Below, in pieces: positions 46,855 through 49,257 of a DNA stretch of 64,000 nucleotides; within the stretch, counting starts at the first letter, position 1, and every line of letters begins with the position of its first letter. Position numbers and translations under genes: made by a program. Below the pieces are notes generated by a model that did not search any database, was not told the origin of the DNA, and saw nothing but the letters and a program-made list of their open reading frames with translations. Source of the DNA: Mycolicibacterium phocaicum (GTDB lineage: Bacteria; Actinomycetota; Actinomycetes; Mycobacteriales; Mycobacteriaceae); the NCBI RefSeq assembly GCF_010731115.1, contig NZ_AP022616.1, positions 4,898,001 through 4,962,000 of the forward strand. Direction: 5' to 3'.

Positions 46855-47568
46855 CTACCCGCCCATCAGCATGCGCCACTGATCCAGGTCGCGTGCCCGG
46901 TAGACGTAGTTGGTGCGACGGACGTCGTCGAGCGGCGCGCTGGGTTCGGCCGAATACCAGTGTCCGGGGAAGACCGTCGGGTCACCGGGCAACGCGGCCA
47001 GCGCCTGCAGGCTGCGGAACATGTCGTCGACGTTCCCGCCCGGGAAATCGGTGCGGCCACAGCCCTCCAGGAACAGCGTGTCGCCGGCCACCAATCGGCC
47101 GTCGAGCAGGAAGCACTGGCTGCCGGGAGTGTGTCCGGGGGTGTGCAGCAGCTCGATCGGCACGGACCCGACCTGCACGACGTCGCCGTGCTGGTGGGAC
47201 GTCAACTCCGATGGCGCGATGCCGGTGACCCGCGATACCCAGTCCGCCTCATGGGCGTTGACGTGCACCGGCACGCTGACCCGCTCCAGCAGCTCGGCCA
47301 GCCCCTTGAGCTCGAAGCCCATCATCGAGCCGCCGACATGGTCGGGGTGGTGGTGGGTGACGAGCACGCCCGACAGGTGCATGCCGTCGCCCTCGAGGAC
47401 GTCGACCAGATCCCCCGCGGCGTAGGCCGGGTCGACCACCACGCAGTCGCCGGTCTCCCGGTCGCCGATGAGGTAGGCGAAGTTGCGCATCTGCGCCGCG
47501 ATCGGATCGGTCGCCGCGAAGTCGCGGCCGGCGAGCAACTGGCGGAAATACAGGCGGTCGTCAGGCAT
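46855..47568 (-). CDS. MBL-fold hydrolase, probable glyoxalase II
   Basis: Metallo-beta-lactamase-fold hydrolase of 237 residues, corresponding to Rv0634c. Metal ligands are in VTHHHPDHVGG, then HTPGHTPGSQC, DTLFLEGCGRTDFPGG and the last His in VFPGHWYS. Likely hydrolyses S-lactoyl-glutathione or a mycothiol-type thioester in methylglyoxal detoxification; the exact thiol is unproven. The ATG at 47568 faces the repeat-flanked nuclease gene. Confidence 0.87.
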   Translation of the reverse strand: MPDDRLYFRQLLAGRDFAATDPIAAQMRNFAYLIGDRETGDCVVVDPAYAAGDLVDVLEGDGMHLSGVLVTHHHPDHVGGSMMGFELKGLAELLERVSVPVHVNAHEADWVSRVTGIAPSELTSHQHGDVVQVGSVPIELLHTPGHTPGSQCFLLDGRLVAGDTLFLEGCGRTDFPGGNVDDMFRSLQALAALPGDPTVFPGHWYSAEPSAPLDDVRRTNYVYRARDLDQWRMLMGG

Positions 47569-47604
47569 GCCGACAGCCTAGGAGGGTGGTCCGCCCGCGT
47601 TGAA

Positions 47605-47658
47605 GTGCGTGGCTTCAATCTCGTGGTGCCCCATCGCGCGCCGATTGAAGCCACGTAC
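47605..47658. repeat. hairpin repeat, upstream copy
   Basis: CGTGGCTTCAATC (47608-47620) and GATTGAAGCCACG (47643-47655) are perfect inverted complements, extending to 16 bp with one G-T pair, around a 22-base loop. A half-site, GATTGAAGTGACGGAT, lies at 47715-47730. The same two 13-base arms recur at 48742-48798 on the far side of the neighbouring nuclease-like gene. Confidence 0.85.
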
Positions 47659-47834
47659 CGATTTCGGGTGCGCGGCGTCCCTGACATCAGTCGGGAGCCG
47701 TCGGTCGGCTTGCTGATTGAAGTGACGGATTTCGCGCCCGCCGGGCAATCCACAGTGCGGATTTCATCCACAGAGCGAACTCGGCGGCGCGGTTCGGGCA
47801 CGGCGGTGTCGGCCATTGTCGACAACATCGCGCC

Positions 47835-48674
47835 ATGGGGGTTTTCATCGGCAGCGAGGCACTGGCCGCGGGGAAGGTCACCCGCAACGACCTGCGGCGG
47901 CACTACCGGCGCATGTTCCCGGACATATACGGACCCGCCGAGCCCACCGTCCGAGACCGTGCGCGCGGTGCGTGGTTGTGGTCCGGCCGGCGCGGCGTCG
48001 TCGCCGGCGTGGCGGCGTCGGCGCTGCACTGGGCGAAATACGTCGACGACGACGTCCCGATCGAGATGCTGTGGACGAATGGTCACCCGCCGAAGGGCTT
48101 GATCGCCCGGAACGAGTCGTACAAGGCGGACGAGGTCACCACCTATGACGGCATTCCGGTCACCACGCCGGCGCGGACGATCTTCGACCTGGGTCGCCAC
48201 CTCGACCGCGACGAGGCGGTCGCGCGGATCGACGCATTGCTGTGGGTGGGCAGGGTCGGCTTGCGTGATGTTCAACCGATCGCTGCGCGGTATCCGTGGG
48301 CGCGCGGTCTCGAACAGCTCCGGATTGCTCTGGAGCTGGCAGACTGCGGCGCCGAGTCGCCGCCAGAGACGCGCGTGCGGTTGCTCCTCACCGACGCGGG
48401 TATGCGCCCGGCCGACACCCAGATCCCGGTTCATGACGGCAATCGCTTGATCACCAAGTTCGACATGGGCTGGAAGCACCTTCTGGTCGGGGTGCAATAC
48501 GACGGAGGTCACCACCAGACCGATCGCGAGCAGTACGTCCGCGACCTGAAGGCGTTGCGCAAGCTGGAAGCGCTGAACTGGATCGTCATCAGGGTCATCA
48601 ACGAGGACACCGACGATGACGTCCTGGCCCGGGTGGCGGCAGCCTTGTACCGCCGTGGGTGGCGGGCGGCGTAG
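47835..48674 (+). CDS. AbiEi-like / DUF559 (PD-(D/E)XK-like) protein, 279 aa
   Basis: N-terminal part (about 1-70, MGVFIGSEALAAGKVTRNDLRRHYRRMFPDIY...RARGAWLWSGRRGVVAGVAAS) resembles the antitoxin-like winged-helix domain of AbiEi proteins, and the C-terminal part resembles DUF559/Vsr-type nucleases: SPPETRVRLLLTDAG, then KFDMGWKHLLVGVQYDGGHHQTDREQYVRDLKALRKLEALNW, giving an E...D...VQYDG pattern. Length 279. Such genes are multicopy in many actinobacteria. It is flanked on both sides by identical hairpin repeats and has no operon partner, which suggests a mobile or selfish unit. Confidence 0.75.
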   Translation: MGVFIGSEALAAGKVTRNDLRRHYRRMFPDIYGPAEPTVRDRARGAWLWSGRRGVVAGVAASALHWAKYVDDDVPIEMLWTNGHPPKGLIARNESYKADEVTTYDGIPVTTPARTIFDLGRHLDRDEAVARIDALLWVGRVGLRDVQPIAARYPWARGLEQLRIALELADCGAESPPETRVRLLLTDAGMRPADTQIPVHDGNRLITKFDMGWKHLLVGVQYDGGHHQTDREQYVRDLKALRKLEALNWIVIRVINEDTDDDVLARVAAALYRRGWRAA

Positions 48675-48675
48675 A

Positions 48676-48735
48676 AGTACCTGAGCTCAATCAGCACGTC
48701 TGGGTCGGGCGGGCGGTTGAGCCCAGGGACCGTTT
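48676..48735. repeat. divergent hairpin unit immediately after the nuclease-like gene
   Basis: GAAGTACCTGAGCTCAATC (starting about 48674) and GGTTGAGCCCAGGGACC (about 48715-48731) form a stem CCTGAGCTCAATC versus CCTGGGCTCAACC with three differences. It has the same layout as the two exact copies (GAAGTRC leader, arms ending CAATC / GATTG), so it looks like a decayed member of the same repeat. Confidence 0.6.
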
Positions 48736-48805
48736 CAACGCTGCAGAAGTACGTGGCTTCAATCGCGCGTGACGAAGTACGGCGTGATTGAAGCCACGGA
48801 TTTTC
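48735..48805. repeat. hairpin repeat, downstream copy
   Basis: Arms CGTGGCTTCAATC (48742-48754) and GATTGAAGCCACG (48786-48798), identical to the upstream pair at 47608-47655, with a 31-base loop. The leader GAAGTACGT also matches. The surrounding region 48675-49040 holds no gene apart from these repeats and a tRNA promoter. Confidence 0.85.
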
Positions 48806-49040: not shown

Positions 49041-49113
49041 GCCCCCTTAGCTCAGTCGGCAGAGCGTTTCCATGGTAAGGAAAAGGTCAACGGTTCGATT
49101 CCGTTAGGGGGCT
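49041..49113 (+). tRNA. tRNA-Thr (GGT)
   Basis: Acceptor GCCCCCT (49041-49047) with AGGGGGC (49106-49112). Anticodon loop ATGGTAA with GGT at 49074-49076, flanked by TTTCC/GGAAA. T arm AACGGTTCGATTCCGTT. 73 bases, no encoded CCA. Confidence 0.95.
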
Positions 49114-49180
49114 CGGTGGACATATGGCGAGCGGAGCGACGGAAGTAAAAATCCGCCGCTGCGCCGCCTGTGTCTGTCGG

Positions 49181-49257
49181 GGCGGTGTAGCTCAGCTGGT
49201 TAGAGCGCACGACTCATAATCGTGAGGTCGGGAGATCGAGCCTCCCCACCGCTACCA
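49181..49257 (+). tRNA. tRNA-Met (CAT)
   Basis: Acceptor GGCGGTG (49181-49187) with CACCGCT (49247-49253, first pair G-U), anticodon loop CTCATAA with CAT at 49215-49217, D arm AGCTCAGCTGGTTAGAGC. Ends with encoded CCA at 49255-49257. The lack of an unpaired first base points to elongator rather than initiator tRNA. Confidence 0.93.

Follow-up and report, generated by a model that had tools for sequence, protein, structure and literature searches.

Why should a single gene for a 279-residue protein in Mycolicibacterium phocaicum be bracketed on both sides by one and the same palindrome? This question is raised by segment 47603-48804 of the window, by which we mean the whole 64-kb stretch (C1:4898001-4962000) that was analysed, taken from a one-contig genome of 5.85 Mb. 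Our answer is that gene and palindromes probably form a cognate pair, a system resembling the repetitive extragenic palindromes (REPs) and their REP-associated tyrosine transposases (RAYTs) but built on an unrelated, non-RAYT nuclease, with the palindromes spread by host repair after cutting. The pairing of enzyme and palindrome is well supported: palindromes bracket the gene, are dispersed over the genome and differ in presence between species. We infer that the nuclease is the cause of their spread. The segment is one copy of an element class widespread in actinobacteria.

Four hairpins surround the gene according to R1, a 58-nt covariance model built from 15 hairpins of the same genome, including three of these four. 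The element consists of the following features:

47603..47660, no strand: left outer palindrome of A type, with 18-nt arms, a 22-nt loop and the exact 13-bp arms; R1 59.8 bits, E=2e-15 in an 87-kb search
47675..47732, no strand: left inner palindrome of B type, decayed; R1 32.7 bits, alignable with the genome's 20 other doublets
47835..48674, + strand: gene for the 279-residue protein, with a predicted AbiEi-like half (residues 1-170) and a predicted Vsr/EDxHD-like nuclease half (residues 175-276)
48357..48662, + strand: nuclease half of this gene, with candidate catalytic residues E178, D210, H227 and D237 and structure-model matches to 3r3p and 1vsr
48675..48732, no strand: right inner palindrome of B type, starting directly after the stop codon; R1 54.3 bits
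48747..48804, no strand: right outer palindrome of A type, with exact arms, included in the doublet alignment; R1 56.1 bits at 48747-48803

The outer and inner palindromes on each side of the gene make up a doublet of about 130 nt, and the left and right doublets are mutually inverted. The exact hairpin, CGTGGCTTCAATC-N-GATTGAAGCCACG, has two copies in the window (47608-47655 and 48752-48798) and none in 100 dinucleotide shuffles, which rules out a chance origin. An earlier sequence-only reading had noticed these 13-bp-arm hairpins on both sides of the gene, and we confirm them, the downstream start being 48752 and not 48742, about 10 nt too early. Its decayed third hairpin at the stop codon is indeed decayed and is a whole hairpin by the covariance model (48675-48732), and its half-site in the leader is likewise whole, if decayed (47675-47732).

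Palindromes of the same type are scattered over the rest of the genome. At E<=1 the covariance model assigned 39 hairpins at 21 sites, 18 of which hold two hairpins, and all 21 can be aligned over about 130 nt as a two-hairpin doublet with a short spacer, the right arm being degenerate at 492484; by eye, 13 doublets are oriented one way and eight the other. The sequence-only reading had held that palindromes strewn at random, with no enrichment near DUF559 genes, would speak against it. The outcome is mostly in favour of that reading: 19 of the 21 sites lie away from any paralogue found, but the remaining two bracket the window gene and the 13 other paralogue loci have none. According to a heuristic on GC content at third codon positions (GC3), 18 of the 19 dispersed doublets are outside coding-like open reading frames (ORFs) and 13 of the 19 are between convergent coding-like ORFs, some of these neighbours being 500-960 nt off. 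A search with the core pattern matched 12 sites, and the reversed pattern matched none; one strict-pattern site (L018, at 4749107), which has no covariance-model match, looks like chance and was set aside. Single arms alone are uninformative, because a looser pattern of one arm, with two mismatches allowed, had 106 matches against 71. A statistic of arm symmetry, which bears on whether the doublet represents two inverted REPs, gave p=0.34 and is weakened by its fixed-length windows. Assignment to a known RNA family was rejected, the two matches obtained (E 0.69 and 0.86) being far below the gathering score.

The family of the window protein has 14 matches in this genome, and its other members have palindromes of their own. 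By eye, nine of the 12 strong own paralogues have matching palindromes, with different arms, on either side and the rest have them on one side, and the window-type covariance model had no match in the 13 other paralogue loci of the genome. We compared the 350-nt flanks of 12 own and 80 related loci, one of which was dropped for a short flank to leave 91, and counted a shared local repeat at a score of at least 40. Such a repeat was present on both flanks of 60 mycobacterial loci (10 of 12 own and 50 of 79 related). Among the controls it was shared by 29 of 1092 mismatched pairs, which include some orthologous sites, by 3 of 910 shuffles and by none of 85 outer-flank pairs; a strong hairpin lay near the gene at 63 of 91 loci versus 2 of 85 outer windows. 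The unit is laid out as a left repeat, the start codon usually 35-60 nt further on (range 20-176), a gene of about 830 nt and a right repeat at the stop codon or close to it, with a total span of 977-1437 nt that is usually about 1000. Direct alignment of the two flanking repeats is the better one at 44 of the 60 loci and inverted alignment at 16, the window being among the latter. Gene-less copies are doublets in the window family and single palindromes in other families, and the palindromes of about 60 bp are specific to a nuclease lineage.

Palindrome similarity tracks protein similarity (Mantel test, 0 of 999 permutations; Spearman 0.21-0.25). When only non-homologous sites are considered, the correlation between hairpin and protein is 0.15-0.20, and a hairpin is common to 6 of 10 pairs with at least 70% protein identity, against 0-1% of pairs below 55%. 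Similar palindromes together with 74-77% identical proteins are also found at unrelated sites (L041 as compared with L047, L065, L070 and L081).

Downstream of the paralogue L025 (G000:C1:2731329-2735129) several palindromes follow one another, and by eye one like them stands at site 3076392 in G173 and G247. A distant paralogue with 26% identity, L034 (G000:C1:3166333-3169800), is followed right after its ORF by a near-perfect palindrome of another family, starting CGCGAGCAGACGTAAAACTGTC; similar repeats are presumably present in M. tuberculosis. The paralogue L032 (G000:C1:3440217-3443984) has lost most residues of the nuclease half and has a hairpin on one side only, an apparent case of decay.

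Co-occurrence was examined in 248 Mycobacterium genomes, in which presence of the window-type hairpin was called at E<=1e-3 with stricter filters. The hairpin is present in 10 of them: in all seven genomes with an orthologue of at least 68% identity, a cut-off chosen after inspection of the data, and in 3 of the 241 others (Fisher p=1.1e-11). A looser cut-off of at least 62% gave 7 of 19 versus 3 of 229 (p=5e-7), and both p-values overstate the case because of the kinship among genomes. Across the genus, hardly any genome that lacks a close orthologue has the palindrome, a result in favour of the sequence-only reading. Members of the protein family as a whole occur in 238 of the 248 genomes (E<=1e-60). 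The three other genomes with the hairpin are G120, with a 57% homologue, and G230 and G247, with none that close. The nearest named homologue locus is that of Mycolicibacterium sp. lyk4-40-TYG-92, at 86% protein identity.

Homologues in L035, G173, G228, G222, G034, G211, G202 and G120 occupy the same place, between two neighbours that give the context outside the unit:

46855..47568, - strand: left neighbour, a metallo-beta-lactamase-fold gene (PF00753, E=2.6e-21)
49041..49257, + strand: right neighbours tRNA-Thr (49041-49114) and tRNA-Met (49181-49257), assigned by ARAGORN

To the right of the tRNAs lies rpmG, recognised by eye, with dehydratase genes further right. We take the genes to the left and right of the unit to be mutual neighbours in M. 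tuberculosis. Same-place orthologues lacking the repeats would have told against the sequence-only reading; window-type hairpins stand beside the gene in seven (L035, G173, G228, G222, G034, G211 and G202, weakly in G173 with E 0.02-0.06), and G120 has no hairpin match beside its gene. A 66% homologue in G152, located elsewhere in its genome, has weak upstream matches (E 0.0005-0.05).

Presence of the unit at a given site differs between species. Among 29 relatives' loci corresponding to the window site, 10 are empty, with a gap of 112-165 nt, six have a small other gene and six have longer inserts; in the remaining seven the tRNA is missing from the examined piece, and one of these, G034, carries the unit further on. 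Some relatives lack the unit at the corresponding place, which supports the sequence-only reading. A small gene at the window's intergenic site, by eye like a VapB-type antitoxin, was recorded in L135, L136, L137, L138, L141 and L143. Both of two dispersed own doublet sites that were compared in four relatives also vary, the first being present in G230 and G247 and absent from G173 and G228, and the second being present in G230, with a palindrome of another family in its place in G247 and G173 and other DNA there in G228.

The site of locus L053 was followed in 31 species among the 248 genomes searched, with states labelled by eye: the full unit in nine, a decayed unit in one, a solo palindrome of the same family in nine, a palindrome of another family in four, an empty site in seven and other DNA in one. 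At least 14 state changes are needed on the flank tree, against a shuffled mean of 17.3, and 2.8% of shuffles were as low. For the nine full units, gene and flank trees correlate at Spearman 0.87 and have four of six splits in common, although the well supported flank split of L053 and L146 (0.989) is absent from the gene tree. Because the gene tree largely follows the flank tree, the unit at this site is old, mostly vertical and repeatedly lost, and the solo palindromes look like products of loss. L186, L189, L190 and L191, from four species, have the solo palindrome of a different family at this site, indicating that one intergenic spot receives several families.

These trees bear directly on one alternative, that the nuclease is a homing endonuclease which cuts sites with solo palindromes, gene conversion then copying the unit into them. 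At the L053 site, the one site tested with trees, there is no support for frequent homing and repeated loss fits better than repeated entry, and homing alone makes no new palindromes in empty places; we therefore regard this explanation as improbable.

What kind of protein is encoded between the palindromes? Searched alone against Pfam, it has matches that are all below the gathering scores (MTES_1575, E=2.8e-4; DUF559, 0.051; AbiEi_1, 0.081), NCBIfam has no family for it, and a sequence search of PDB with profile A3 was uninformative (best E 0.028). In the predicted structure, the N-terminal 170 residues or so have a two-domain AbiEi fold and residues 175-276 have the fold of an EDxHD homing-endonuclease catalytic domain, with matches to 3r3p and 1vsr. 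Compared with the sequence-only label AbiEi/DUF559-type, an AbiEi-like half joined to a Vsr/EDxHD-like nuclease half describes the protein better than plain DUF559. Among 76 proteins the candidate catalytic residues are conserved in 75 (E178) or all 76 (D210, H227 and D237 each); their assignment to E-D-x-H-D is our own, made from conservation and not from a residue-by-residue superposition on 3r3p. Neither the Pfam nor the structure-model matches include an HUH/tyrosine transposase of the type found in the IS200/IS605 group of insertion sequences (IS), residues 1-276 being taken up by the predicted AbiEi and Vsr-like nuclease halves. The suggested link to toxin-antitoxin genes is not supported, since only the N-terminal half is AbiEi-like and no partner toxin gene is adjacent; a toxin-antitoxin operon was ruled out on the same ground, the neighbours being the metallo-beta-lactamase-fold gene, two tRNAs and then the dehydratase genes.

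The predicted AbiEi-like fold also invites the explanation that the palindromes are autoregulatory operators, the AbiEi-like half binding repeats in its own promoter, with the downstream palindrome acting as a terminator and neither being an element end. According to PMC7319586, AbiEi and Rv2827c do bind inverted repeats of 23 bp, each in its own promoter, and the upstream repeat ends at a suitable place, 20-176 nt and typically 35-60 nt before the start codon. The same palindrome, however, also stands at the stop codon and is found at 21 sites of the genome, the non-mycobacterial genome G442 described below has at least 40 copies of its own palindrome, and presence at the same intergenic sites varies between species. 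We consider operators an unlikely explanation of the whole arrangement, whereas promoter binding may still be one real function of the protein.

For the cognate pair we propose the following mechanism. The protein would act as a dimer whose AbiEi-like halves read both arms of the palindrome, and the EDxHD/Vsr-like half would cut or nick there; palindromes would then be copied to new intergenic places as the host repairs or replicates the cut end, and recombination between the flanking palindromes would delete the gene and leave a solo palindrome. The AbiEi-like half fits palindrome binding because AbiEi and Rv2827c bind inverted repeats. The predicted fold, the conserved candidate residues and the purifying selection on the gene (see below) likewise speak for the cognate pair. 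I-Bth0305I, as described in PMC3943268, dimerises on a target of nearly 60 bp, which is close in length to the palindromes of 58-72 bp found here.

Several observations weigh against this interpretation. The largely vertical descent at the L053 site is one, and no target-site duplication was identified. Plasmid and phage records had no match at E<=1e-20 and E<=1e-5, unlike ordinary IS elements, by which a plasmid or phage gene was also ruled out. We know of no DNA transposition by Vsr-like nucleases, and the spreading step is for this reason conjecture. Position 221 is Q in the window protein, as against E in 71 of 76 proteins. The 12 genomes with homologues of 62-66% have no window-type palindrome at E<=1e-3, and G230 and G247 (L271 and L272) have many orphan palindromes of this type, with 22 scored hits each on both strands, and no close homologue. 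Among the mycobacterial loci, 31 of 91 are below the flank threshold, one of which, L035, carries doublets by the covariance model, and the shared repeats, which are mostly clear hairpins, are not so at L096, L097, L100 and L111. The persistence at the same place in the window's clade, the largely vertical descent at the L053 site and the lack of plasmid or phage matches make the cognate system RAYT-like rather than IS-like.

The family extends beyond Mycobacterium. Among 197 genomes of the class, 131 have members by profile A1, with ten Mycobacterium genomes included in this tally. Paired flanks were found at 13 of the 20 best-matching non-Mycobacterium loci, against 1.6% of 380 control pairs; the 20 include about five for which a wrong or partial frame was picked. 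Four of these 13 look like short-repeat arrays and not hairpins. L229, L235, L236 and L240, which are non-mycobacterial, are flanked by short-repeat arrays such as CGTTGACCGTGCGTCCCAAA in place of hairpins. G442 has no fewer than 40 copies of the gene-side palindrome, with 40 of 168 candidates scored, and three other genomes of the same family have none. In the best 15 copies, 95.8% of cells are paired and 12 pairs have changes on both sides; each of these figures was reached by 0 of 500 shuffles, and the count of further pair types was reached by 149 of 500. The copies are 86-100% alike to the query, which suggests recent amplification.

One more explanation is that mobility lies in the past and that palindromes and nuclease now serve the host, for example between convergent genes, in termination or as sites for repair or structure. 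In its favour are that the gene has a ratio of non-synonymous to synonymous substitution rates (dN/dS) of 0.15-0.20, indicating purifying selection, that 13 of 19 dispersed doublets are between convergent ORFs and 18 of 19 in non-coding DNA by the GC3 heuristic, and that orthologues persist at one place. Yet the window-type palindrome has a narrow distribution, with 10 of 248 genomes, close relatives differ in their sites, and the similarity of the copies in G442 suggests recent amplification, so that we find such domestication very unlikely.

If the cognate pairing is true, chromosomal enzymes have come to be paired with palindromes of their own more than once in evolution, a function is given to a multicopy family with 14 matches in one genome and members in 238 of 248 Mycobacterium genomes, and the origin of dispersed actinobacterial stem-loop repeats can be put to a direct test with a single purified protein and the palindrome that belongs to it. 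The family may also offer sequence-specific nucleases with targets of about 60 bp and several specificities per genome. More tentatively, and with somewhat more doubt than belief, we suggest an unrecognised class of actinobacterial mobile palindromes, in which an antitoxin-type-guided homing-endonuclease/Vsr nuclease would amplify its own target of about 60 bp in trans by cutting and host repair, with no transposase chemistry, and which would explain many orphan mycobacterial stem-loop families.

We compare the system lastly with those already known. From an IS200/IS605 element, which likewise has a small gene between hairpin-bearing ends, it differs in enzyme fold and in the lack of plasmid or phage matches at the thresholds given above. 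It has in common with I-Bth0305I the predicted fold of the catalytic domain and the candidate E-D-x-H-D pattern. It differs in its location, which is not within an intron or intein, in its fusion to an AbiEi-like half, in the palindromes on both sides and in its mostly vertical descent at the L053 site. With the AbiEi antitoxins of type IV toxin-antitoxin systems, such as Rv2827c, it shares the predicted fold of about 170 N-terminal residues, and AbiEi binds inverted repeats (PMC7319586); the added nuclease half, the dispersed palindromes and the lack of an adjacent AbiEii nucleotidyltransferase toxin gene set it apart. Myt-1 and Myt-8 of M. tuberculosis, compared by description only, are alike in size (72 and 92) and element number (75 and 33), and the portion of PMC2267715 at hand assigns no enzyme to them. 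In the open-access PMC literature, which omits most subscription journals and preprints, we found no published account of a pairing of an AbiEi/Vsr nuclease with palindromes.

REP-type repeats are best known from proteobacteria and RAYTs are thought to spread them (PMC2817692, PMC3116915), and the likeness to REP/RAYT that the sequence-only reading had pointed out holds for the architecture of a palindrome-bracketed enzyme gene with dispersed palindromes. In both systems the gene is flanked on both sides by one palindrome family (four hairpins in the window; 60 of 91 loci), further palindromes lie scattered outside the genes of that genome (here 39 hairpins over 21 sites at E<=1, with 18 of the 19 sites away from the gene non-coding by the GC3 heuristic), and enzyme and palindrome similarity go together. 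The window family has a doublet arrangement, and the two doublets of the window are mutually inverted as at RAYT flanks (same sources). The differences are the predicted AbiEi-like and Vsr/EDxHD-like enzyme in place of an HUH/tyrosine transposase, palindromes of 58-72 bp as against 20-40 for REPs (PMC3733652), and the better direct alignment of flanking repeats at 44 of 60 loci, a weak distinction as the palindromes are near-symmetric. The GTAG tag at the palindrome foot is absent from the common columns of the doublet alignment and from the G442 consensus, and some REP families in the table of PMC2817692 also have no such tag. The family thus looks like a so far undescribed counterpart of REPs, based on an unrelated enzyme, in mycobacteria and other actinobacteria.
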